The position numbers and the translations under genes were made by a program. The notes beneath the pieces were generated by a model that was not told the origin of the DNA, searched no databases, and saw only the letters and a program-made list of their open reading frames with translations. From Clostridium ljungdahlii DSM 13528 (GTDB lineage: Bacteria > Bacillota > Clostridia > Clostridiales > Clostridiaceae): a stretch of 64,000 nucleotides of DNA. Every line of letters starts with the position of its first letter. The first letter of the stretch is position 1. The stretch is from the NCBI RefSeq assembly GCF_000143685.1, contig NC_014328.1:3472001-3536000 (forward strand), in the 5' to 3' direction. Below are positions 11,463-54,472 of the stretch, one piece after another.

Positions 11463-11721
11463 TATAGAGCTTCTAACTAAAATTTAAACTTATACATAAA
11501 ATGTAATTACAAAATTGAAAGCACCTTTAAAAACTTTTCCATAAGTCTTAGCGAGGTATTTTAGAAAATCTTAGGAGTTTAGATATATTTGAGGTACGAG
11601 TTTAGCTAAGGTTCTTAGATTTTCAAAATACCGAGCTCTAGACTTATCAAAAGTTTTTATGGTACTAAAATTTGTCATTACATGACCTGTATAAGTTGAT
11701 TTTTCATTTAGAAACTCTATA
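11463..11721 (+). repeat. Long palindromic element, copy R1 (type B)
   Basis: 259 bp that can fold end to end. Outer arms are TATAGAGCTTCTAA and TTAGAAACTCTATA; inner paired blocks include ATGTAATTAC/GTCATTACAT and the AAGTCTTAGC region against GCTCTAGACTT. The apical loop contains TTTGAGGTACGAGTT (around 11597). The right end lies 2 bp from the stop codon of cobO (minus strand). It shares most of its sequence with 45787-46040 and 51795-52044. Confidence 0.85.
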
Positions 11722-11723
11722 AG

Positions 11724-12239
11724 TTAATTCTCTATTCCAACTCTTGCTGGGACACCTTCAGTATAATAATGCTTTATTTCCTTCATTTCTGTAACTAAAT
11801 CTGCTCTTTCTATTATTCTCTTATCTGCATATCTTCCAGTTAGTATTACTTCAGTCTTTTCCTGTTTTTTATCTAAAATTTTCAAAACCTCATCTACTGT
11901 AAATAGTTCATAAAATATAGCTATATTTATTTCATCCAATACTACTACATCATAGTCTCCCTTTGTAACTATCTCTTCAATTTTTTTAAGTCCAGTTTTG
12001 GCTGCTTCTATATCAGCTTTGCTTGGTTTACCGCATATAAAACAATTTCTTCCAAACTGTTCTAATGTAAAATTAGGTAAATACTCTTTTGCTTTCAGTT
12101 CGCTGTATTCCATTCCTTTAACAAACTGACCAAAAAATACTTTTTTACCAGCACATACAGCTCTGAGAGATAACCCTAGTGAAGCCGTAGTCTTACCTTT
12201 ACCGTTTCCAGTATAAACTTGAATGTATCCTTTATCCAT
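11724..12239 (-). CDS. cobO: Cob(I)yrinic acid a,c-diamide adenosyltransferase
   Basis: 171 residues, BtuR/CobO/CobA type. Residues 1-20 carry the P-loop TGNGKGKTTAS; YDVVVLDEIN near 105 and VILTGR near 140 are family signatures. It transfers adenosyl from ATP to the cobalt of corrinoids. The ATG at 12239 has GAGGG 9 bases upstream and is preferred to a TTG at 12248. Unlike the rest of the cluster it is separated from pduX by 135 bp containing its own promoter, so it may be expressed independently. Confidence 0.92.
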   Translation of the reverse strand: MDKGYIQVYTGNGKGKTTASLGLSLRAVCAGKKVFFGQFVKGMEYSELKAKEYLPNFTLEQFGRNCFICGKPSKADIEAAKTGLKKIEEIVTKGDYDVVVLDEINIAIFYELFTVDEVLKILDKKQEKTEVILTGRYADKRIIERADLVTEMKEIKHYYTEGVPARVGIEN

Positions 12240-12257
12240 AACAAACAACCCTCTTCC

Positions 12258-18134: not shown

Positions 18135-18292
18135 AAGTTTTCACATCCTCACTGCTTAATATAAAGTTTAAAGTCCAAATATCAAAGTTCAAATAATTAT
18201 GACTTCCTTCGTACCTCATCAAATCTATAATTTCAATGTTTTCTGACGTTAGGAGGAAAATCATCATTATCTGTTATTTGTTCTTTAACAAA
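18135..18292. other. Non-coding insertion-like gap in the cob operon
   Basis: 158 bp between cbiT and cbiL. It contains low-complexity words (AAAGTTTAAAGTCCAAA, then ATATCAAAGTTC) and the 10-mer TCGTACCTCA near 18211, which also occurs in the loop of the long palindromic elements. I see no palindromic arms here, no promoter I trust and no gene. It looks like decayed dispersed-repeat DNA. Confidence 0.4.
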
Positions 18293-27812: not shown

Positions 27813-29051
27813 TTAAGTAGTTACATCTTTACTTATTTTTTTTAACACCTGTAGTATTCTTTCATTTCTCCACCTATCTTTTACCGCTAATCTTATAAAT
27901 TTACTATCAAGTTCCTTAAAATTATTGCATCTTCTTATGAGAACATCTTCTTTTAAACATCTACCATATAGCTTCTGACAATCTTCATATTTCATTTTAC
28001 ATAATACAAAATTGCTGTAGCTATCATACACTTTTTCAAACAAAGGTATCTCTTTTAACTCATCTAACATAAATTTTCTTTCTTTTTCTATCCAACAAAT
28101 GGACTCTTCTATGTATTTCTTATCTTTAAGTACACTCTCAGCTGCTGTTTCTGCAAAAGAGTTTATGTTCCATGGATTTTGTTTGGATTTTATACTTTTT
28201 ATTAAATTTTCATTTTTACAAAGACCATATCCCATTCTTATTCCCGGCAGTGCAAAAAATTTAGTAAGAGCTCTGATTAAAAATACACATTTATATTTCT
28301 GCGATTCCCTTAAAAAAGAACATCCTCTTTTTCCTGTAAACTCCACAAAAGCTTCATCTATAATTATTGTTTTATGATTTTCCTCGCAGTAATCAAGTAT
28401 TTCTTTAAACTTATCTTTATCTATTACACCGCCATTTGGGTTATTTGGATTACCAATAATTAATGCTTCTGACTTTGTTATTTTTTGTCCGATATCTTTA
28501 TAATCATACTCCATATTCTCTTTCAAATGTGAATGTATTATTTGGCAGTTCCATTCTGCTGCATTTTTTTCATATTCTATAAAAGAAGGTACTACAATAC
28601 AGATGCTTTTAAAACAGCTGATTACAAGATCTATTATCTCTGCAGCTCCATTACCTAATACAATGTTCGTATCTTCCATGCTGCTTGATATTTTTTCTTC
28701 TTCAATGTAAACAGAGTTCTTGGCATCAGATGGAGTTTTTGACTTCACCTGATACTTAGAAATCGTTATCCAGGGACGTAGCTGCTCTTTGCTCCCACTT
28801 GAAGAAGTGGGAGTATTAGAGCAGGTAGTCATCGGATAAAAGTAATTTAATGAAAAATTTATATACTCTTTTATTGAATTTTTAAGTTGTCTATACTCCA
28901 CATCAGGATACTTTTCTACATCTTTTAATGCTTTTTCTATATTTTCTTTGAAACTTAAAGGTACTCCTAGTGGATTTATATTCGAACTGAAATCCAAAAG
29001 CTTTCTTCCCTTTAAAAGTCCCTCTGTATATATATCTCCACCATGTTCCAT
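27813..29051 (-). CDS. cobD: Threonine-phosphate decarboxylase with in-frame repeat insertion
   Basis: 412 residues against about 360 usual. N-terminus HGGDIYTEGLL...LLDFSSNINPLG, NPNNPNGG near 203 and the PLP lysine in LTKFFALPGIRMGYG near 264 identify a CobD aminotransferase-fold decarboxylase making aminopropanol phosphate. Residues about 73-115 are foreign: they are encoded by the repeat at 28707-28835, which has a second copy at 54293. The insertion is 129 nt, keeps the frame and falls in the linker before GNGAAEIID, where Salmonella CobD has only a short turn. Activity may be kept; not provable here. Confidence 0.9.
   Translation of the reverse strand: MEHGGDIYTEGLLKGRKLLDFSSNINPLGVPLSFKENIEKALKDVEKYPDVEYRQLKNSIKEYINFSLNYFYPMTTCSNTPTSSSGSKEQLRPWITISKYQVKSKTPSDAKNSVYIEEEKISSSMEDTNIVLGNGAAEIIDLVISCFKSICIVVPSFIEYEKNAAEWNCQIIHSHLKENMEYDYKDIGQKITKSEALIIGNPNNPNGGVIDKDKFKEILDYCEENHKTIIIDEAFVEFTGKRGCSFLRESQKYKCVFLIRALTKFFALPGIRMGYGLCKNENLIKSIKSKQNPWNINSFAETAAESVLKDKKYIEESICWIEKERKFMLDELKEIPLFEKVYDSYSNFVLCKMKYEDCQKLYGRCLKEDVLIRRCNNFKELDSKFIRLAVKDRWRNERILQVLKKISKDVTT
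28707..28835 (-). repeat. Structured mobile repeat M1 inside cobD
   Basis: Read on the minus strand, it starts CCGATGACTACC right after TTTAT and ends CTCTGTTTAC. It holds a nested hairpin, TGCTCT...AGAGCA enclosing CTCCCACTT/AAGTGGGAG. The copy at 54293-54472 starts after the same TTTAT, shares both ends and swaps the outer pair to CGCTCT...AGAGCG, keeping base pairing. A hairpin end, a fixed 5' flanking pentanucleotide and no target duplication are traits of IS200/IS605-type elements. No transposase is encoded. Confidence 0.75.
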
Positions 29052-31750: not shown

Positions 31751-31790
31751 AACCACACTAAAAGTTTCTCTCCCTCCGAAAGCATATAAT

Positions 31791-31945
31791 AACAATCAGG
31801 CAGGTCTCCTGGCTTATGATTCATATTTACTTTAACCTTCCTCTTTTACGAGTGGTAACTAAAGTTCATCATCACATACAGTAGCGGGGGCTGCTACGGA
31901 GTTTAACCGTATTCCCTTTTCACCTATAAAGGCACCTGAATTTTC
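31791..31945 (-). ncRNA. Cobalamin riboswitch
   Basis: Minus strand contains the conserved blocks in order: GGTGCCTTTATAGGTG, AAAGGGAA, GCAGCCCCCGCTACTG (B12 box-like core) and GCCAGGAGACCTGCC near the 3' end. It precedes cbiP and, through it, the whole leftward cluster, so adenosylcobalamin or a related corrinoid should shut the operon off. Confidence 0.95.
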
Positions 31946-32065
31946 TATTTAATTTATACTCTAAGTTTATTATAATTAGAGTTTTATGTCAACTTGAAAT
32001 ATCCAATATATTACATAAAGTAAATAAAAATTTCATGGAATTCTAAAGTTTTACAGTTAATAACA

Positions 32066-35894: not shown

Positions 35895-38057
35895 ATGCTA
35901 AGAAATATTATACAAGTTTTTAAAAGAGATATGAAAAGTATTGTTAAAAATAAAATGACAATGTTGATTGTTGCAGGTGTATGCATACTTCCATCTCTCT
36001 ATGCATGGGTCAATATAAAAGCATGTTGGGATCCTTATGGAAATACAAGCAGCATTCCTGTAGCCATAGTTAATGAGGACAAGGGTACGAACTTTAACGG
36101 AAAAAATTTAAATACAGGAAATGAAATCGTAGAAAAATTAAAAGATAACCATAAAATAGGCTGGAAATTTGTAAACGCTAGAAACGCGGATATGGGTATC
36201 ATAGATGGTACATACTATGCCATGATAAAGATTCCAGAAGATTTCTCAAGGAATATTACAAGCATAACATCAAATACTCCTAAAAAAGCTGAGATCATTT
36301 ATAAAGTGAATACAAAAAATAGTCCTGTAGCTCTTAAAATAACTGATGCAGCAAGAAACACGCTAGCAGAACAAATAAAATCAAATTTTATATATACAGT
36401 AAATCAAACTATATTTTTTTCTTTGAACATTTTTGGTAAAAATGCAGAAAATGATAAACAAAACATTATAAATTTGAAGGATGCAATAATAAAATTAAGT
36501 GACAATATGGATGTTATAACAGATGTTCTTGGAGGCATAAGTGATGATTCAAATGATTTTAATTCAACGCTTTCTCAAATTAAATCAGGTATTCCTATGA
36601 TAAATTCAAGAATAACTACTTTAGAAAATGGTAATGACACAAACAATTCATCTGTGCTATCCCTTCAGTCTTCCATGAACAATACCTTTGATAACATTGC
36701 ATTTAATTTAAATACCTCAAAGACTGATATATATAGGATTCAAAATTCGATCTTAAATTTTAATTCAGTAGTTTCAAATTCCAAGTATTCAAATATAGAT
36801 ACCACTGTAACTAAAATCAATTATGAGATAGATATATTATATAATAAAATCAATTCAACCATTAACATTCTTGAAAAATTTAATAATTTTAAAAACGATG
36901 ACAGTACATCAGAACTTATAAATTCATTAAAAAATACTAGGGATTCATTAAATACAGAGAAAAAGAAAATAAACGATATCCAAAAACAACTTGAAAGTTC
37001 AAATGAAATAAATAGGGATTTGATTAATTCAATAACAAATGACACTGCAAATTTAAATCAGCAATTAATAGATGAAACCAATGCATACAATGGGCAGGTA
37101 AGAAAAAGCTTAAATTCCACGGCGGCTGAACTTGTTGAGTCCACAGATAAAGCTTCTTCTGTTTTAAAATCTATACAAGATCTTACTTCCCATGGAGATA
37201 ATTCCTTAGATGCGTTAATAAACGGAAGTGAGCTGACAGCAAATTCATCCAGCAAACTAAACAACAGATTATTGGAATTTAAGGATATTATTAACAATTT
37301 AGCAGATAAACTTAAACTAGTAACTAATAATGACATAATACAGATAATCACCATATTGCAAAATAACCCTGATTTTATGGGTAGCCTTGCATCAAGCCCA
37401 TTTAATGTGAAGGAACAAAATATATACACTATTTCAAACTTTGGATCTTCCATGGCTCCAGCTTATACTACACTTTCAATCTGGATTGGATCTATTATTC
37501 TTGTATCCATTTTTAAAACAGATGCAGATAGATTTAAAGGTGATGAAAGATTGAGCTTTAAAGAAAGGTATCTTGGTAAAATGAGTACCTTTATAGTTTT
37601 TGCATTAGCACAGGGATTTATAGTTGCTATTGGGGATAAACTTTTGCTAAATGTCCAAATGGTAAATACATTTTTAATGATAATGGTAGCTCTAGTTTCA
37701 TCTTTTACTTTTACTGTAATAACATACACCCTTGTTTCTATGTTTGGTAACTTGGGGAAGGCTATATCCATTGTTTGGCTTATAACTCAAATAGCAGGAA
37801 GTGGAGCAACCTATCCAATACAGCTTGATTCACTTATTTTTAGAATAATGCAGCCTTTATTTCCATTTACCTATTCAGTAAGTGGATTCAGAGAAGCTAT
37901 CGCAGGACCTCTTATAAGTACTGTAGTTATGGATTTTACGTTTATGATTTTAATTTCAATGTGTTTTATACTATTAGGTATATTTTTAAAGAAACCTTTG
38001 CAAAATAAAATCTATAAGTTTAGAGCCAAGCTTTCACAATCTGGTATAGGAGATTAA
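35895..38057 (+). CDS. YhgE/Pip family membrane protein
   Basis: 720 residues. One N-terminal membrane segment (MTMLIVAGVCILPSLYAWVNI) is followed by the conserved NIKACWDPYGNT motif, a large polar, helical extracytoplasmic region rich in Asn/Ser/Lys (about 60-520) and a C-terminal ABC-2-like membrane domain with five segments ending at KKPLQNK. Family members include the lactococcal phage infection protein Pip and ESX/type VII-associated YueB-like proteins; several Clostridium members lie in TetR-controlled operons. Function here unknown. ATG follows TTAGGAGG. Confidence 0.85.
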   Translation: MLRNIIQVFKRDMKSIVKNKMTMLIVAGVCILPSLYAWVNIKACWDPYGNTSSIPVAIVNEDKGTNFNGKNLNTGNEIVEKLKDNHKIGWKFVNARNADMGIIDGTYYAMIKIPEDFSRNITSITSNTPKKAEIIYKVNTKNSPVALKITDAARNTLAEQIKSNFIYTVNQTIFFSLNIFGKNAENDKQNIINLKDAIIKLSDNMDVITDVLGGISDDSNDFNSTLSQIKSGIPMINSRITTLENGNDTNNSSVLSLQSSMNNTFDNIAFNLNTSKTDIYRIQNSILNFNSVVSNSKYSNIDTTVTKINYEIDILYNKINSTINILEKFNNFKNDDSTSELINSLKNTRDSLNTEKKKINDIQKQLESSNEINRDLINSITNDTANLNQQLIDETNAYNGQVRKSLNSTAAELVESTDKASSVLKSIQDLTSHGDNSLDALINGSELTANSSSKLNNRLLEFKDIINNLADKLKLVTNNDIIQIITILQNNPDFMGSLASSPFNVKEQNIYTISNFGSSMAPAYTTLSIWIGSIILVSIFKTDADRFKGDERLSFKERYLGKMSTFIVFALAQGFIVAIGDKLLLNVQMVNTFLMIMVALVSSFTFTVITYTLVSMFGNLGKAISIVWLITQIAGSGATYPIQLDSLIFRIMQPLFPFTYSVSGFREAIAGPLISTVVMDFTFMILISMCFILLGIFLKKPLQNKIYKFRAKLSQSGIGD

Positions 38058-38108: not shown

Positions 38109-40268
38109 TTGAAGGTAATATTCAAACTATTAAAAAGAGATTTTAAAAATATAATAAAAACTCCATCAGTGCTTGCTTTAATTTTATTATTGTGCGTCCT
38201 TCCATCTCTTTATGCTTGGATTAGCATTAAAGCCTCATGGAATCCTTATGCCAATACAAATAGAATGCCTATAGGTGTAGTAAACAATGACAGCGGTACA
38301 ACTATTAACGGTAAAAATTTAAATGTTGGAAATGAAATAGTTAAAAATTTAAAGAAAAATAATTCTATAAATTGGATTTTTATAGATGACTGGCAGGGAA
38401 ATTATAATCTTAATTCAGGAAAATATTATTCACTTATAGAGATACCTGCTGACTTTTCCAGCAAACTTTCCACTTTAATTACAGCATCACCTGAAAAGCC
38501 TAGTATAATCTATAAATCTAATGAAAAGCTAAATGGAATAGCCACTAAAATTACAGATTCAGCTAAAGATTCCTTAGCAGATACTATAAAAAGTTCTCTT
38601 ACAAAATCCGTAAACATGGAAGCTCTTAAAATGCTAAACTCTACAGGTAAAAAGCTTGAAACAGACAAGCCTCAAATTTTACAATTAAAGGATGCTTTAC
38701 CTCAAGCAATATCTACCTTAAATGATATAAAAGGTAATATGTCACAGGAAAATTCCAACTCCAAAAGTCTGCAGCAATATCTAAGTGGAGTTCAAACAGA
38801 TTTGCCAAAATTGTCCAAAGAGATAACTAGTCTTCATAATATTGTAGAACAAAGTAGAACACTGACTTTATCTACCAAAGAATCTCTAAATTCTATGCAA
38901 AGTGATTTGAATAAAGATATAAATGAAATTGAATCAAAAGAAAATCAAGTTCAACTTTTGCTTAACAGCCTGCAAAATATAAATAATATGGATGCTGGCA
39001 AAAGTTCAGCTGCAAGTATTATAGAAAATATGAGTAATTTGAATAATTCTTTAATAGATAGTATAGATACTGATATTAAAATTCTAAATGAGATAAATGG
39101 ATTTATAAATACTAATATAACAAGTGATCTTATAAACTCATTGAAGTCCCTAAGAAATTCGTTAAGCACTGAAAACAATTATTTGGCTGAGTTAAAGAAT
39201 TTAATAAATAGCAACTCTTCACAAGATAGTATTAATCAAGTTATATATGAACTTTCATCATTAAGTAGTGAATCATCAGAAGATATAAGCAATATATCAA
39301 ATATCTTTTATTCAGGAACATATGAATCCATGAATTTATTATCAGACACATTGACATCCAATTTAGATAGTATTGATTCAATACTTAATGCAACTGGGCA
39401 ATTGGTACCCGAATTAAATCTTATGGCAAACTCAGGAATATCAAGCAGTAAAAATTTAGTTAATCAAAGAGATAGGTTAAGTAAAAAGCTAATAGATATT
39501 CAAAATAACTTAAACAAATTAAGTGATAAAATGAAGGACTTAAACGATGAAAACTTAACTTCAATAATAAATATAATGGAAAAAGATCCTAATAAAATAT
39601 CAGATTTTATATCATCACCTATTGAATTGAAAAATGTTGAACTATATAATTCAGGTCTTTTTGGATATGGAATAACGCCTTTTTATACTACTCTTGCAAT
39701 ATGGGTGGGAGCTTTGTTGTTATGCTCCATGCTAACACTAAAATGTAAAGATCTCGAAAGTGGAGAAAATGTGAAATTGTTACATAAATACTTTGCCAAA
39801 TTACTTCTATTTTTAATAATATCAATTATACAAACTACCATTATAACTTTAGGAGACATATATATAGTAGGGATAAAGCCAGAAAATTTATGGCTTATGA
39901 TGGGATTTGCATTTACCTGCAGCTTTACTTTCACTATTATTATAGTTACATTAGTATCTATTATGGGTAACATTGGAAAAGCCGCTGCAGTTATAATAAT
40001 GGTCTTTCAAATTGCAGGGGCAGGAGGACTTTATCCTGTAAAAACCTTGCCTCAAATATTTGGAGTACTAGAACCTCTTTGGCCTTTTACATATGCTATA
40101 AATGGATTCAGGGAAGCTATAGCAGGACCTATTTGGAGTAATGTGTATAAGGATTTCCTCACTTTAATGGCTTTTGCAGGTGCATTTTTGATTATTTCTG
40201 TCTTAAAAAAGCCTCTTCACAAATTAACTGATAAAGCAGAAAGTCAATTCAAAGAATCAGGTTTATAG
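38109..40268 (+). CDS. YhgE/Pip family membrane protein, tandem paralogue
   Basis: 719 residues from a TTG at 38109, which lies 7 bases after AGGAGG; the longer frame from 38073 reads through the ribosome binding site. Same architecture as the preceding gene: N-terminal segment LCVLPSLYAWISIKASWNPY, long coiled-coil-like middle and C-terminal ABC-2 membrane domain with FTYAINGFREAIAGP. The two proteins probably arose by duplication and may work as a heteromer. Confidence 0.85.
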   Translation: MKVIFKLLKRDFKNIIKTPSVLALILLLCVLPSLYAWISIKASWNPYANTNRMPIGVVNNDSGTTINGKNLNVGNEIVKNLKKNNSINWIFIDDWQGNYNLNSGKYYSLIEIPADFSSKLSTLITASPEKPSIIYKSNEKLNGIATKITDSAKDSLADTIKSSLTKSVNMEALKMLNSTGKKLETDKPQILQLKDALPQAISTLNDIKGNMSQENSNSKSLQQYLSGVQTDLPKLSKEITSLHNIVEQSRTLTLSTKESLNSMQSDLNKDINEIESKENQVQLLLNSLQNINNMDAGKSSAASIIENMSNLNNSLIDSIDTDIKILNEINGFINTNITSDLINSLKSLRNSLSTENNYLAELKNLINSNSSQDSINQVIYELSSLSSESSEDISNISNIFYSGTYESMNLLSDTLTSNLDSIDSILNATGQLVPELNLMANSGISSSKNLVNQRDRLSKKLIDIQNNLNKLSDKMKDLNDENLTSIINIMEKDPNKISDFISSPIELKNVELYNSGLFGYGITPFYTTLAIWVGALLLCSMLTLKCKDLESGENVKLLHKYFAKLLLFLIISIIQTTIITLGDIYIVGIKPENLWLMMGFAFTCSFTFTIIIVTLVSIMGNIGKAAAVIIMVFQIAGAGGLYPVKTLPQIFGVLEPLWPFTYAINGFREAIAGPIWSNVYKDFLTLMAFAGAFLIISVLKKPLHKLTDKAESQFKESGL

Positions 40269-41695: not shown

Positions 41696-41985
41696 ACTAA
41701 AAAATAAACTTACACTTCTGACATTTTTACAACCACAAGCACGATTAAATATTTTGGCAAATCTTAGTAGAAAATATTTAAATGCGCCTATTTATTGTAA
41801 AAATATCTATACGTATAAGCTTATTTCAAGTTAGATTACTATATATAGTATTTTTAAGTAAAATTTGAACTTATACAATGTGAATATGCTGCCAAAATTG
41901 AAGCTACATTTTAAAATTTTTTTATAGTAGTGAAATTTAGCAACATACTCCGCTGTATATGTCAACTTTTTACTTACAACTTTAT
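41696..41985 (+). repeat. Palindromic element pair R4, core-deleted
   Basis: Two half-sized relatives in tandem. The first ends ATTGTAAAAATATCTATACG-TATAAG, like the type A copy at 45527; the second begins GAACTTATAC and ends CTGTATATGTCAAC, like type B. Both lack the central stem and the TGAGGTACGAG loop. The right end is about 4 bp from the stop codon of metQ. This is the main content of the 520-bp gap between metQ and the phosphatase gene; the remainder (41466-41695) shows nothing I recognise. Confidence 0.65.
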
Positions 41986-41988
41986 TTT

Positions 41989-42810
41989 CTAAAATGCTGG
42001 AACTATGCTTCCATTATATTTTTCCTGTATAAACTTCTTAATTGATGGATCGTTAACAGCCTTTGCTAATGCCTTAATATAAGGTTTGTCTTTATTTTCT
42101 TTTTTAACAGCAATTACATTAGCATAAGGTGAATCCTTAGATTCTATGGCAATAGCATCTTTAAGTGGATTTAACTTTGCTTGAAGTGCATAGTTTGTAT
42201 TTATAACTGCCGCATCTACTTCTGTTAAAGTTCTTGGGAGTTGTGGTGCATCGAGTTCCTGGAATTTTAAGTTTTTCTTGTTTTCAGTTATATCTAATTT
42301 TGAAATAAGATCTCCACTCTTTACTTTTATAATTCCTTCATGAGCCAATAACTTTAATGCTCTTGCGCCATTTGTAGGATCATTTGGTATTGCAATTTCA
42401 GCACCATTTTTCAAGTCTTTTAAACTCTTGATTTTATTAGAATAAACCCCCATAGGTTCAAGATGTACTTTTGCTACATAATCTAAATTTGTATTATTCT
42501 TTTTATTGAATTCATTTAAATATGGAATATGTTGAAAAAAGTTTGCATCTATATCTCCTGAATCCAAAGCCTTATTAGGTGTTACATAATCTGTAAACTG
42601 AACTATTTGTAAATCGTATCCTTGTTTCTTTAGTATAGGTTTTACCTTTTCTAGTATTTCGGCATGAGGCTGTGGAGATGCCCCTACTTTTATTACTTTT
42701 TTGTCATCACCTTTACTACTGCTTGAAGAACTTGTACTGCTTTGCGCACCACATCCAGCTAATGCCAAGATCAATGTTAACGATAAAATAACTGTAATTA
42801 ATTTTTTCAT
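41989..42810 (-). CDS. metQ: Methionine ABC transporter substrate-binding lipoprotein
   Basis: 273 residues. Lipoprotein signal peptide ending LALAGCGAQ (lipobox LAGC), then the NlpA/MetQ domain: VGASPQPHAEILEKVKP near 40, FFQHIPYLNEFN near 100 and VDAAVINTNYALQA near 195. It binds methionine at the membrane surface. A SAM riboswitch precedes it, which supports the substrate. The usual metN and metI are absent beside it. ATG 42810 after GGAGGG. Confidence 0.92.
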   Translation of the reverse strand: MKKLITVILSLTLILALAGCGAQSSTSSSSSSKGDDKKVIKVGASPQPHAEILEKVKPILKKQGYDLQIVQFTDYVTPNKALDSGDIDANFFQHIPYLNEFNKKNNTNLDYVAKVHLEPMGVYSNKIKSLKDLKNGAEIAIPNDPTNGARALKLLAHEGIIKVKSGDLISKLDITENKKNLKFQELDAPQLPRTLTEVDAAVINTNYALQAKLNPLKDAIAIESKDSPYANVIAVKKENKDKPYIKALAKAVNDPSIKKFIQEKYNGSIVPAF

Positions 42811-42900
42811 TTTGATTCCCTCCAATTATAAAATAATAGACAATTTCTAAGCATTAAGCTGAGATATAAAATTTTCATATCATATTTTCAATTCAAAATC

Positions 42901-42943: not shown

Positions 42944-43052
42944 TCCTCTCATCTTCCAGCTTATGCTGCAGGAATTAGCACCACTATACTATTAAAAATA
43001 GCATTGGTTGCCGGGCTTCATAGGGCCAGTCCCTCCACCTCTCTTGATAAGT
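42944..43052 (-). ncRNA. SAM-I riboswitch (S-box)
   Basis: The minus strand begins CTTATCAAGAGAGGTGGAGG and continues ACTGGCCCTATGAAGCCC then GGCAACC, the hallmark S-box blocks, ending with GGAAGATGAGAGG. It controls metQ by transcription attenuation: high SAM, terminator formed. Confidence 0.95.
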
Positions 43053-43302
43053 TAATATTAAATTTTGTTAACTTGTGATTTACATTATAACAGCGAAATT
43101 TAAAGATGTCAACAGTAACATTTTCTGTTCTCAAAGATTTTTTACTTTACTTTTAACTTAATATTCTTCCCTATCCATAAAGCCACATTTAGGATAAACT
43201 AGTTATCCTGTGGTTCTTTATTTTATATGGAAAATGTATAAAATAAATATTAGACATAGTAATTGAAAAATATTAAATAACAAGTTCAGTGGAGGAATTA
43301 AC

Positions 43303-44358: not shown

Positions 44359-45525
44359 TTGTTTAAAGATTACAGACCTGTATGGGAAGAAATTAATTTA
44401 GACAATCTTGTATATAATATACGTCAAATAAAGCTGAAAGTTGGTAATAATAAAGGACTGATAGGTGTTGTTAAAGCTAATGCCTATGGCCATGGAGCTT
44501 TAGAAGTATCACAAGTTTTATTAGAAAATGGAGTAAATAGATTGGCCGTATCTGAGTTAGATGAAGCAATAGAACTTAGAGAAAATGGAATTAAAGCTCC
44601 CATAATGATACTTGGCATAGTCCCAGATACTTTTTTGAATGACATAATAGATTATAATGTAGAGCCAGTGGTGCCTTCTTATGAATATGCAAGTAAATTA
44701 TCAAAAGTAGCTAAAAATAAATGGAAAACTGCAAAAATACACGTTGCAGTAGATACTGGAATGGGAAGAATAGGATTCCAGCCAAATGAAAATAGCATAG
44801 AAGAAATATACAACATAAGCAAACTTCCAAATATAGAAATACAAAGCTTATTTTCTCATTTTTCCACTTCAGATGAAAAAGACAAAACATATTCACAGGA
44901 ACAATTTGAAAAGTACAAAACATTTTACAATGAGCTCATAAATAGAAAGATAAAAATAAGCATGAGAGATATTGCAAATAGTGCAGCTATAATGGAATTA
45001 CAAGACACTTATTGTGATGCAGTTAGACCAGGAATAATAATTTATGGATATTACCCTTCAGATGACGTAGATAGAAATGATCTAAGCATAAAACCTGTAA
45101 TGAGTTTAAAAGCTAAAGTAGCTTATGTAAAGACATTAGAAGCTGGAAAATACGTTGGCTATGGAAGGAAGTTCAAATCTGAAAGAAAAAGTGTAATAGC
45201 TACACTTCCAATAGGATATGCAGATGGCTATACTAGAATGCTTTCAGGAAAGGCAAAAGTAATAGTCAATGGTAAATTTGCACCAGTAGTTGGTAACATC
45301 TGTATGGATCAGTGCATGATAGATGTTACAGATGCAGGTGAAGTAAATGTAGGCGATGAAGTAATACTCATGGGTGAAAAAAACGGATTGAAATTTGATG
45401 CGGAAGATATAGCTAAAACAATTGGAACTATAAGTTATGAAATACTCTGCTCCATAAGTAGAAGAGTTCCAAGGGTATATATAAAAGACGGAAAAATAAT
45501 CAAAATTAGAAATTACCTGAAATAA
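44359..45525 (+). CDS. alr: Alanine racemase
   Basis: 388 residues. PLP lysine in VVKANAYGHGA near 38, RIGF near 140 and the catalytic tyrosine region YVGYGRKFKSE near 264; TLPIGYADGYTR near 281 is conserved. It interconverts L- and D-alanine. The start is TTG 44359, 8 bases after AAAGGAG; an ATG at 44352 is out of frame. Confidence 0.94.
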   Translation: MFKDYRPVWEEINLDNLVYNIRQIKLKVGNNKGLIGVVKANAYGHGALEVSQVLLENGVNRLAVSELDEAIELRENGIKAPIMILGIVPDTFLNDIIDYNVEPVVPSYEYASKLSKVAKNKWKTAKIHVAVDTGMGRIGFQPNENSIEEIYNISKLPNIEIQSLFSHFSTSDEKDKTYSQEQFEKYKTFYNELINRKIKISMRDIANSAAIMELQDTYCDAVRPGIIIYGYYPSDDVDRNDLSIKPVMSLKAKVAYVKTLEAGKYVGYGRKFKSERKSVIATLPIGYADGYTRMLSGKAKVIVNGKFAPVVGNICMDQCMIDVTDAGEVNVGDEVILMGEKNGLKFDAEDIAKTIGTISYEILCSISRRVPRVYIKDGKIIKIRNYLK

Positions 45526-45526
45526 A

Positions 45527-45786
45527 TATAGAGTTTCTAAACGAAAAATCAACTTATGCTACGGGATATTTTTTACAACCTTCAGCTCATTAAATATTTT
45601 GATAAGGCTAAGTAAAAAATTTTGAAAAATACTGAGAACTTTTGAAAACTCGTACCTCAAACAATTCAAAAGTTCTAGATTTTTCAAGAAATTTTTTTCT
45701 AAGTCTTATATGCAAAATATTTAAAAGAGCTTCATTATTGTAAAAATATGCCTACGTATAAGTTGATTTTTTAGTTAGAACGCCTG
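45527..45786 (-). repeat. Long palindromic element, copy R2a (type A)
   Basis: It starts TATAGAGTTTCTAA one base after the alr stop. The plus strand reads AAAACTCGTACCTCAAAC in the loop, flanked by AGAACTTTTGAA / TTCAAAAGTTCT. The far side ends near CGTATAAGTTGATTTTTTAG. Inverted relative to its neighbour R2b. About 80% like R3a over the compared arm. Confidence 0.8.
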
Positions 45787-46040
45787 TAAGTTTTCAATTG
45801 AAATTTAAACTTATACATAAAATGTAATGACAAAATTGAAAGCACCTTTAAAAACTTTTCCATAAGTCTTAGCGAGGCATTTTAGAAAATCTTAGGAGCT
45901 TAGATATGTTTGAGGTACGAGTTTAGCTAAGGTTCTTAGATTTTCTAAATGCTGAGCTTTAGACTTGTCAAAAGTTTTTATGGTGTTGAAATTTGTCATT
46001 ACATGGCCTGTATAAGTTAACTTTCAATCTAGAAACTCTA
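45787..46040 (+). repeat. Long palindromic element, copy R2b (type B)
   Basis: Nearly identical to R1 at 11463-11721 across most of its length (for example ACTTATACATAAAATGTAAT and the loop TGTTTGAGGTACGAGTTTAG). It ends TAGAAACTCTA, 4 bp before the stop codon of the DMT gene on the minus strand. Together with R2a it fills the gap between convergent alr and DMT genes. Confidence 0.85.
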
Positions 46041-46044
46041 TTTT

Positions 46045-47106
46045 TTAGTGAGCATGTCTATGATGCAAGTCTGGAGTATGTGGATGACAATGTTCCATTC
46101 TCTCATGAACGTGATAGTGCGTATGATACACGCTATCAGGTATACCAGGATGATGATGATTGTGATGTCCATCTGTATGACAATGCCTGTGTTCATGGGC
46201 CATATACAAATGAACGTGCATATGGCTGTGATTTTCCCTTATAATAAGAACCGTTCCTGCAATCATAAGAGGAAGTGCAAGTGCAAAAGTAACACCTGGA
46301 ACTTCTCCTAGTAAAATAAAAGACAATATAGTACTTATAAAAGGTGCTGCACTGAAAAAAGCACTAGTTCTAGCACTGCCTAAATTTCTCATTGCAAACA
46401 CAAACAAAACTGTACTAAATCCATAGCTTAAAAATCCAAGCAGCAATGCCATAAAAATTATTTTAAAGTCCGGCAAATGATTTCCTAAAATAATTGACAA
46501 AATTAGTGAAAATGTTCCTGCTCCCAATCCTTTAACCATAACTATAGTATAAGGATTTTTAGCAGATATGTTTCTTGTAAAATTATTATCTATCCCCCAA
46601 CATACGCAGGCCAATATTATTCCCAAAGCCCCTAAAGATATTCCCCACTGGCCAGTAAAATTCCAGGATAAAATTACACTAGCAGAGAGTATACATATTA
46701 TAGCCGCACCAATTCTCTTGCCGATGTTCTCTTTAAAAAATAGTGCTGCAATAATTGTGGTAGCTACACCTTCAAAATTCAAAAGAAGTGATGCAGTAGA
46801 TGCTGGCGTTACTTTTAAGCTTATCATTTGAATTATAGGCCCTAAAATCCCCCCAAAAATAACAGCCCCTAAAAGCCATGGAAAGTCTCTTTTAGTTAAT
46901 CCTGCTTCCTCTATATCTTTTTTGTATAAAATTTTTTCTAATATCTGAAATATTAAAAGTCCTACACCACTTCCAATATACAAGAGAGCAGCCAAAAGAA
47001 CTGGATCTATTCGTCCAAGAAGGATCTTTGAAATAGGTGCACTGGCTCCAAAAAGTAGTGCAGAAAAAAAAGCTTGAAATATTGGATATAATTTGGTATT
47101 CCTCAT
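46045..47106 (-). CDS. DMT (EamA) transporter with histidine-rich tail
   Basis: 353 residues. Ten membrane segments in two EamA halves (residues 1-295), then a hydrophilic tail of about 60 residues with roughly twenty histidines (HSHMHVHLYMAHEHRHCH and onward to the HAH end). The tail suggests binding of Ni, Co, Cu or Zn. A CsoR/RcnR-like repressor gene lies 23 bp upstream with its own G/C-tract operator, so this looks like a metal-induced exporter. EamA proteins with this tail are not a classic metal efflux family; function is inference. Confidence 0.8.
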   Translation of the reverse strand: MRNTKLYPIFQAFFSALLFGASAPISKILLGRIDPVLLAALLYIGSGVGLLIFQILEKILYKKDIEEAGLTKRDFPWLLGAVIFGGILGPIIQMISLKVTPASTASLLLNFEGVATTIIAALFFKENIGKRIGAAIICILSASVILSWNFTGQWGISLGALGIILACVCWGIDNNFTRNISAKNPYTIVMVKGLGAGTFSLILSIILGNHLPDFKIIFMALLLGFLSYGFSTVLFVFAMRNLGSARTSAFFSAAPFISTILSFILLGEVPGVTFALALPLMIAGTVLIIRENHSHMHVHLYMAHEHRHCHTDGHHNHHHPGIPDSVYHTHYHVHERMEHCHPHTPDLHHRHAH

Positions 47107-51529: not shown

Positions 51530-51775
51530 CTGCATATTTTCTAACTTAAAACTCAACTTATATGCAGGAATATATTTACAATAATGAAATTTTTTTAAAT
51601 ATTTTGTATATAAGTCTTAGAAAAAAATTCGTAAAAACTTAGAACTTTTGAATTGTCTGAGGTACGAGTTTTCAAAAGTTCTTAGCTTTTTTAGAATTTT
51701 TTACTTAGACTTATCAAAATATTTAATGAACTGAAGGTTGTAAAAGATATCCGGAGTATAAATTGAGTTTTAAGA
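51530..51775 (+). repeat. Long palindromic element, copy R3a (type A)
   Basis: Loop TTGTCTGAGGTACGAGTT sits on a 15-bp stem (CTTAGAACTTTTGAA / TTCAAAAGTTCTTAG, one mismatch). Outer arms begin CTTAAAACTCAACTTATA. About 90 bp after the DUF554 stop, so not adjacent to that stop. Same direction as R3b. Confidence 0.8.
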
Positions 51776-51794: not shown

Positions 51795-52044
51795 TCTAGC
51801 TTGAAATTTGAACTTATACATGAAATATAATGACAAAATTGAAATCACATTTAAAAACTTTTTTAAATAAGTCTTAGCTTGGTATTTTAGAAAACCTTAG
51901 GAACTTAGATATGTTTGAGGTACGAGTTGATCTAAGTTCCTTTAGGTTTTCAAAATACCAAGCTTTAGACTTATTAAAAGTTTTTATAGTGATGAAATTT
52001 GTCATTATATGATATTGTATAAGTGAACTTTCAACCTAGAAATA
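51795..52044 (+). repeat. Long palindromic element, copy R3b (type B)
   Basis: Best-paired copy: AGGAACTTAGAT / ATCTAAGTTCCT encloses ATGTTTGAGGTACGAGTTG. The right end (CCTAGAAATAT) touches the stop codon of the nitroreductase gene at 52046. About 75-80% like R1 and R2b. Confidence 0.85.
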
Positions 52045-52045
52045 T

Positions 52046-52618
52046 CTAAATGTCTAAAATTATATCTTCTAAACTTCTTTTTGGTACATGATGGACTTTA
52101 TTCTCGTCTCTCCAGTACTTCACATCATTATTTGAATCCATAGCTTCTATAACCACTTGTTCCTTTGGCTTTCCAAGAGCTACTACCAATATAATTTCAT
52201 ATTTTTCATCCAAATTAAGATTTGATTTTAATTCTTTTTTATTCACATTTCCCAGCATACATCCGCCAAATCCTTTTTCTACAGCTCCTAGTAAAATAGT
52301 TTGAGCTGCTATTCCAGGATCAAATGATGGGCTTTTACTAATAGATGTGTCATTAAGTATAACAACATAACCACTTGGTTTTTCACCTTCTTCAGGTCCA
52401 TCCCAGTCCTTTAAATATCCTGCCCAACCCAAAGTCTTAAATATTTTTTCATTATTATCTTCTGTATTTGATATAACATATTTTAGTGGCTGCAAATTTG
52501 AACCTGATGCTGATAATCTGGCAAGGTTCACCAAATATTTTAAAGTTTCCACAGTTATTTTTTCATTCTGATAGAATCTTCTACAGGATCTATTTTTTAA
52601 AACTAGTTCTTTTATCAT
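52046..52618 (-). CDS. Nitroreductase family protein
   Basis: 190 residues, FMN-binding nitroreductase fold: NRSCRRFYQNEKI near 10, LARLSASGSNLQPLKYV near 34 and EKGFGGCMLGNVNKKEL near 110. Substrate unknown. ATG 52618 is preferred because GGAGGG abuts the earlier ATG at 52624. Confidence 0.88.
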   Translation of the reverse strand: MIKELVLKNRSCRRFYQNEKITVETLKYLVNLARLSASGSNLQPLKYVISNTEDNNEKIFKTLGWAGYLKDWDGPEEGEKPSGYVVILNDTSISKSPSFDPGIAAQTILLGAVEKGFGGCMLGNVNKKELKSNLNLDEKYEIILVVALGKPKEQVVIEAMDSNNDVKYWRDENKVHHVPKRSLEDIILDI

Positions 52619-52788
52619 ATTCATCCCTCCAAGCTAATAACTTAATATCATTACAATTATCATATCTCTAAACAAATTGAATATCAATCAAATATAGTAA
52701 ATATAAAGGTAATATTGAATTATATATAATGTTACTATAAAATTATATATAGTAAATATTATTCATAAAAAGGGGGAGCTAGAATACA

Positions 52789-54117: not shown

Positions 54118-54292
54118 TATATACCTCCTGATTAGATATATCATTAATATATATTTTGAGAGAAAACTCAACTACTTATACAAAATATTTTTACATTATA
54201 TTTACACAATTATAACTTTTGTGGTTGCAATTAAAGTTATAATTGAACCAAATCTTGTTATTGACAGTACAAAATGCAAGTCATATATTTAT

Positions 54293-54472
54293 CCGATGAC
54301 TACCCGCTCTAATACTTTCCCTCTTTTCCAAGTGGGAGTAAAGAGCGGATACGTCCCTGGATAACGATTTTTCCTAAAGGATAACGCCTTCTAAGTGCTG
54401 AAGCACTAAGAATCCTGTTAATAAGCATCAGGTGGAGTTAAACCTCCATCTGATACTAAGAACTCTGTTTAT
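54293..54472 (+). repeat. Structured mobile repeat M2
   Basis: Starts CCGATGACTACC after TTTAT and ends CTCTGTTTAT, like the copy in cobD at 28707-28835, but carries about 51 extra bases with a small hairpin (AAGTGCT/AGCACT) before the CATCAGGTGG block. Outer stem CGCTCT/AGAGCG differs from the other copy by a compensated base pair. It fills the leader region before the secreted peptidase gene. Confidence 0.75.

Follow-up and report, generated by a model that had tools for sequence, protein, structure and literature searches.

In Clostridium ljungdahlii, an acetogen used for gas fermentation, the gap between alr and a convergent gene for an EamA (DMT) transporter is taken up by two long hairpins standing tail to tail. 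The window, meaning the whole 64,000-nt stretch of DNA that was analyzed, had been described from its letters alone as holding five intact hairpins of this kind, and all five ∼250-nt foldback copies (∼246 to 260 nt) are present exactly where that sequence-only reading placed them. Two copies were folded and have minimum free energies of −85.6 and −84.8 kcal/mol (z-scores of −11.7 and −10.2), with none of 200 shuffles being as stable. The loop core TGAGGTACGAG, allowing one mismatch, occurs seven times in the window (five of them exact), compared with 0.17 expected. Behind alr (stop codon at 45525), a type A hairpin on the + strand (45527 to 45786) is sense to alr and carries CTCGTACCTCA at 45649 to 45659; it meets a type B hairpin on the − strand (45787 to 46040), which is sense to the EamA gene (ORF 46045 to 47106, − strand). 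A second type B hairpin (11463 to 11721, − strand) is sense to cobO (ORF 11724 to 12248, − strand), where a terminator-like hairpin persists beyond the element, and a third (51795 to 52044, − strand) is sense to a nitroreductase gene (ORF 52046 to 52624, − strand). The identities proposed for these neighbors hold, and the element feet lie 2, 1, 4, and 1 nt from the stop codons of cobO, alr, the EamA gene, and the nitroreductase gene, respectively. The fifth copy, a type A hairpin (51530 to 51775, − strand), stands behind the type B copy at 51795 to 52044 in the same orientation and has no stop codon within 60 nt, so that the stop rule describes four of the five copies in the window. Three remnants were also noted: a type A with its apex deleted (41700 to 41835, + strand), a type B with its apex deleted (41861 to 41979, − strand) that faces the stop codon of an ORF (41989 to 42825, − strand), and one resembling type C (18170 to 18286, + strand) with a one-mismatch loop at 18208 to 18218.

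The same arrangement extends across the chromosome (genome G000; 4,630,065 bases), in which TGAGGTACGAG occurs exactly 74 times and its reversed pattern not at all. When up to two core mismatches are allowed and self-complementary arms are required, the family comprises 83 copies across 59 stretches, and a simple rule sorts these into 43 type A, 33 type B, and 7 type C (one 'B', at 4499643, has a C-like core). Full-length BLAST matches share 80 to 93% identity, and as in MITEs there are many similar, short, noncoding foldback copies. Taking as sense the strand that reads CTCGTACCTCA, and stop positions from genes called by our own ORF scoring, 66 of the 83 copies have a stop codon 80 to 175 nt upstream of the loop center (median stop-to-loop-center distance, 128.5 nt), whereas a stop codon lies on the opposite side in 8 of the 83, and in 3 it is a start codon that stands at this distance. 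The adjacency to stop codons and the orientation first noticed in the window, with the upstream mRNA showing one face of the loop, hold genome-wide. At several genes the stop codon is the element's own TAG (of TATAGAG). By a cruder test, an ORF stop within 60 to 200 nt was found on the sense side for 23 of 34 copies in C. thailandense and 3 of 6 in C. magnum, and on the antisense side for 9 of 34 and 1 of 6; in other genera copies often lie behind ORFs at similar distances, with a sense stop found for some but not each. The genes upstream of the elements are unrelated to one another. One part of the initial description did not survive this survey, namely that there is one unit for each convergent gene, since copies also stand behind tandem genes. 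Convergent genes each appear to own a copy because the common unit of the family is a tail-to-tail pair in which a sense A is followed by an antisense B, in some cases separated by a third hairpin, D.

In the annotated stretches the typical order behind a stop codon is a sense hairpin, an optional hairpin D, and an antisense hairpin of the opposite type; these A+ (D) B− units are inverted, spaced, and extragenic, as are REP/BIME pairs. Hairpin D is ∼145 to 170 nt long with a loop near CTTGGTTG, occupies the space separating A from B where the two are far apart (for example, at 609530 to 609699 of G000; L109, 4231 to 4400), and is represented by 23 pieces in the stretches. The two halves of a pair survive unequally. 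In sequence that was not chosen by its copies (800 kb of C. ragsdalei plus the window), stop-facing halves are intact in 18 cases and decayed in 5, compared with 6 and 10 for other halves (p = 0.012); the corresponding numbers are 14 and 4 versus 5 and 9 in C. ragsdalei alone, and 58 and 11 versus 11 and 23 in the G000 stretches, which were chosen by their copies. Among 21 one-sided tail-to-tail pairs from all sources, both halves are intact in 10, the stop-side half only in 8, the far half only in none, and neither in 3. Decay is often by apical deletion, and several kinds of hairpin (A to F) are nested and recombined at the same places. Such nesting, decay through internal deletion, a patchy distribution, and base-pair statistics in which G-U is not favored (see below) would all be expected of a foldback element that is wholly selfish and of no use to its host; its transposase would prefer hairpin DNA at terminators or stop codons, and stop-side survival would reflect mutational bias alone. 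We consider this unlikely, however, given the survival bias itself, the loops unchanged in seven orthologous copies, and the loss of recognizable native terminators at most genes with elements.

The loop had been described as nearly fixed. This is so in G000, where the 11-nt loop is nearly invariant, but it varies across the wider family returned by covariance-model searches, after which an invariant 11-nt loop was rejected as the defining feature. What is conserved is an apex in which AACTC and TCARACA frame a variable, covarying mini-hairpin, and all 18 loci checked from genomes with none or one exact 11-mer have the form AACT(C/G)-variable-TCARACA. The closing pair of the mini-hairpin is Watson-Crick in 31 of 34 distinct variable segments (mean of 24.7 and maximum of 31 in 2,000 shuffles), most often as G-C and elsewhere as A-T, and the second pair is Watson-Crick in 20 of 24 (shuffle mean, 16.8; maximum, 20). 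Because the variable segments pair in this way, the fixed loop seen in the window is the form that one subfamily gives to an internal loop with a mini-hairpin as its cap. Type C has the same 11-mer between TTCC and GGAA and lacks the AACTC/TCARACA frame (G000 positions 171903, 1066217, 1481785, 2487123, 4499643, 4548532, and others). Comparison of G000 with C. ragsdalei at seven same-copy sites shows no change at any of 77 core positions, compared with changes at 114 of 1,655 others, although these seven (in L100, L101, L062, and four in L105) were judged among 14 places to be the same copy after the alignments had been seen; the other seven were set aside as places where the type or the orientation is not the same, and two of them also have an unchanged core. 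When all 13 rows with at least 80% coverage are used, 12 of 134 aligned core positions and 361 of 2,972 other positions differ. We regard this comparison as supportive of loop constraint, but not decisive.

Within the genus, 3 of 13 genomes have 74 to 82 exact cores and the rest have none or one. Of 206 genomes of the bacterial family, 36 contain the exact 11-mer, ten of them in at least five copies; outside the bacterial family, among 391 genomes of the class, it is found at the level of the reversed pattern. One of the ten, G031, has its five exact 11-mers without the flanking frame, in a different repeat that places CTCGTACCTCA in a compact stem-loop (L173 and L174), and G031, G102, and G001 were excluded as members because their 11-mers lack AACTC/TCARACA. 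Covariance models recover members in genomes without the loop by which the elements were first recognized. A first model, built from 33 sequences and with at most 20 candidates scored per genome, gave matches at E ≤ 1e-4 in 25 of the 200 bacterial-family genomes, belonging to 9 of 46 genera; among these 25 are genomes with none or one exact 11-mer (G106, G107, G109, G110, G160 to G162, G175, and others). A second matched 9 of the 391 class genomes, 4 of them outside the bacterial family (G220, G236, G459, and G507); nine loci from these four show the same apex, and 22 of 24 second-model loci checked fit the motif. The earlier remark that no named family has this layout is consistent with what we found: Rfam gives the elements no match at gathering score over the window, and at E ≤ 1 only microRNA models overlap the copies (L142, L409, L417, and L418), far below their gathering scores, which we take as generic long hairpins. 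A search of the viral contigs with AACTCGTACCTCARACA gave no matches, and no description of the element was found in the portions covered of the open-licence PMC literature, including PMC2864571.

Stem differences had been said to preserve pairing, and they do so beyond shuffles. In a MAFFT alignment, 28 of 36 pairs are changed on both sides and covariation is 0.291, compared with 0.145 for shuffled alignments and at most 0.182 for slid partners, with further pair types not above shuffles (54 versus 51.8); an alignment fitted to the model, which leans towards structure, gives 34 of 36 pairs and 0.632 versus 0.174 shuffled. Inner-stem pairing exceeds that of any of 500 shuffles within type A, within type B, and within the C. 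thailandense/C. magnum set. The arms thus covary, as structured RNAs in general do, and the suggestion that selection acts on a hairpin as RNA or as single-stranded DNA is borne out in its pairing, but not in the step to RNA, there being no excess of G-U over A-C. On the sense strand, G-U is found 35 times and A-C 56 times among diverse members (p = 0.035), and about 192 and 261 times inside types A and B (p = 0.001), both counts being confined to this family. Because G-U is not favored over A-C, pairing seems to be kept in DNA, perhaps through movement as a DNA hairpin or copying between the arms, rather than by selection on an RNA helix. By eye, CTAAG is present on both arms at two heights and leaves A-A mismatches, which copying between arms alone should erase.

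These data bear directly on the idea that the elements are a structured 3'-UTR RNA module, in which the apex (AACUC/UCARACA and the mini-hairpin) and the mismatched stem would bind a factor controlling the stability or expression of the upstream mRNA, and which would have spread through use by the host. Sense orientation at a fixed distance from the stop codon, covariation of the stem and mini-hairpin, the unchanged loops in the seven orthologous copies (rows of our own choosing), and the better survival of stop-side halves are all in keeping with such a module. We nonetheless think it rather improbable: G-U pairs are not in excess in counts confined to this family, the upstream genes are unrelated, Rfam has no match, and in genome G006 the only hairpin at alr is antisense to it.

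This last case comes from comparisons at single sites, which show exchange of types in place. A sigma-like gene has B in G000 and G006 and A in G008, and an ABC-F gene has A in G000 and B in G006 and G008. At alr, G000 has A and then B, G008 has an apex-deleted B and then A, and G006 has a single A, sense to the EamA gene; the proposal that each gene in the alr/EamA gap has its own inverted copy is therefore true of G000 but not a rule. Much of this swapping would be accounted for if tail-to-tail pairs flip. Thirteen G000 sites have both flanks in unselected C. ragsdalei contigs; nine have at least one loop in both species, four have none in C. ragsdalei, and loop numbers are equal at seven. 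Three of the four loop-less sites (1481785, 1017479, and 531454) are occupied by a further hairpin, E, distinct in stem and loop, which stands behind the stop codon where G000 has type C or A. At the polymorphic sites we saw deletions within the element, inversions, or a different hairpin in its place, and because neither a clean empty site nor a target duplication or recent insertion came to light among those compared, mobility is something that we infer. In C. ragsdalei an ORF (L240, 1232 to 2371) lies where G000 has a B copy; by eye, its N terminus is like an IS607-type resolvase and its later part like TnpB.

Genes that carry an element seldom have a recognizable terminator besides. A terminator scan, extending 330 nt for element genes and 150 nt for comparison genes, was positive for 2 of 64 element genes and for 38 of 163 convergent or wide-gap genes (convergent, 6 of 30 and 9 of 19; wide-gap tandem, 23 of 114); it was also positive for 1 of 107 close tandem genes and 2 of 41 genes near other copies. 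With an earlier version of the scan the positives were 3 of 62, including cobO in the window. That the element merely stands in front of an intact native terminator is thus not the rule (2 of 64), although terminator-like hairpins do lie behind the element at 563986 and at cobO (3483590). The ABC-F protein ends at the same residue in all 13 species, and in non-carriers a compact inverted repeat is seen by eye just past the stop codon in 7 of 10 and is absent from three; at alr, an obvious inverted repeat follows the stop codon in about three of nine non-carriers, also by eye. A T-run is present at the 3' foot in types A and C, and in type B T-runs are seen only inside (by eye).

Our preferred reading, for which we would put the chances at close to even, is of a MITE- or BIME-like foldback family whose members take up positions at stop codons and go on to form the 3' ends of the genes concerned. 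Nonautonomous, palindromic, mobile clostridial repeats with ∼250-nt hairpins would come to lie immediately after a stop codon, frequently as a tail-to-tail pair, and replace a compact intrinsic terminator; the gene-adjacent half would then become the 3' end, a giant hairpin that stops transcription, shields the mRNA end, or both, and would be retained while the far half decays. The apex, with its covarying mini-hairpin, and the paired CTAAG sites may be what the mobilizing machinery recognizes when it moves the element as a DNA hairpin. The patchy spread, typical of mobile repeats, argues for this. Against it stand the want of a clean empty site or linked transposase, the antisense-only hairpin at alr in G006, the few inverted repeats (about three of nine) in alr non-carriers, the terminator-like hairpins left at cobO and 563986, the type B foot lacking a T-run, and the decay of 5 of 23 stop-side halves, as well as a conserved apex that exceeds the needs of a terminator.

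The systems closest in kind are BIMEs and MITEs. MITEs, ERIC, RUP, and YPAL are nonautonomous, intergenic foldback repeats of this size class, but the elements described here differ from them in their strict one-orientation adjacency to stop codons and in an apex motif common to subfamilies with differing outer ends, and no target duplication or partner transposase was found for them. They share with intrinsic terminators a hairpin directly behind the stop codon and, in types A and C, a T-run at its 3' foot, but are ∼250 nt long with a conserved apex, and their terminator role is putative. Integron attC sites are also long hairpins with conserved mismatches and a fixed orientation behind stop codons; the clostridial elements, in contrast, are at scattered single genes and have the apex as their conserved part, and no cassette arrays or integrase were noticed in the stretches read. 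REP/BIME repeats are likewise dispersed imperfect palindromes behind genes, in inverted pairs with spacers and patchy between species, but REP hairpins are of 20 to 40 nt according to PMC3733652, whereas the present elements are of ∼250 nt, with a conserved apex, and G000 lacks a Y1 transposase. That they are large REP/BIMEs moved by a REP-associated Y1 transposase (RAYT) acting on a single-stranded hairpin would account for the spaced tail-to-tail pairs at extragenic 3' positions and for imperfect palindromes with mismatches at fixed places. However, mobilization by Y1/RAYT is unsupported: PF01797 has no matches in 4 of the 16 carriers tested (G000, G107, G131, and G161) and none in 2 of 15 non-carriers, and several non-carriers have many. 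With this distribution, and with hairpins far longer than REPs, we consider movement of the REP type very improbable.

A broader form of the preferred reading, which we put forward tentatively and with some doubt, is that these are an unnamed clostridial class of mobile gene ends, in which selfish foldback DNA targets stop or terminator sites regardless of the gene, takes the place of the native terminator, and is then retained as the 3' end, with the covarying apex read by a dedicated, putative factor on the hairpin DNA or RNA. If the settlement at stop codons is as we propose, dozens of genes in one clostridium would have had their 3' ends remade by a mobile repeat, which would show that selfish palindromes can be tolerated, and even domesticated, through takeover of gene ends; the position rule and the apex motif make this directly testable.

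Further repeats and structures were noted in the window. A repeat of ∼130 to 145 nt, F, which we take to resemble an IS605-type remnant, is found at 28701 to 28845 and 54288 to 54471, at 641416 to 641602 and 1233750 to 1233883 of G000, and in L252, and at several places it is inserted within the stem of a B hairpin. A 192-nt direct repeat (35982 to 36173 and 38193 to 38384; 71% alike) lies within two adjacent long ORFs, which are probably paralogues, and cobalamin and SAM riboswitches, at 31782 to 31954 and 42946 to 43053, score above their Rfam gathering thresholds.
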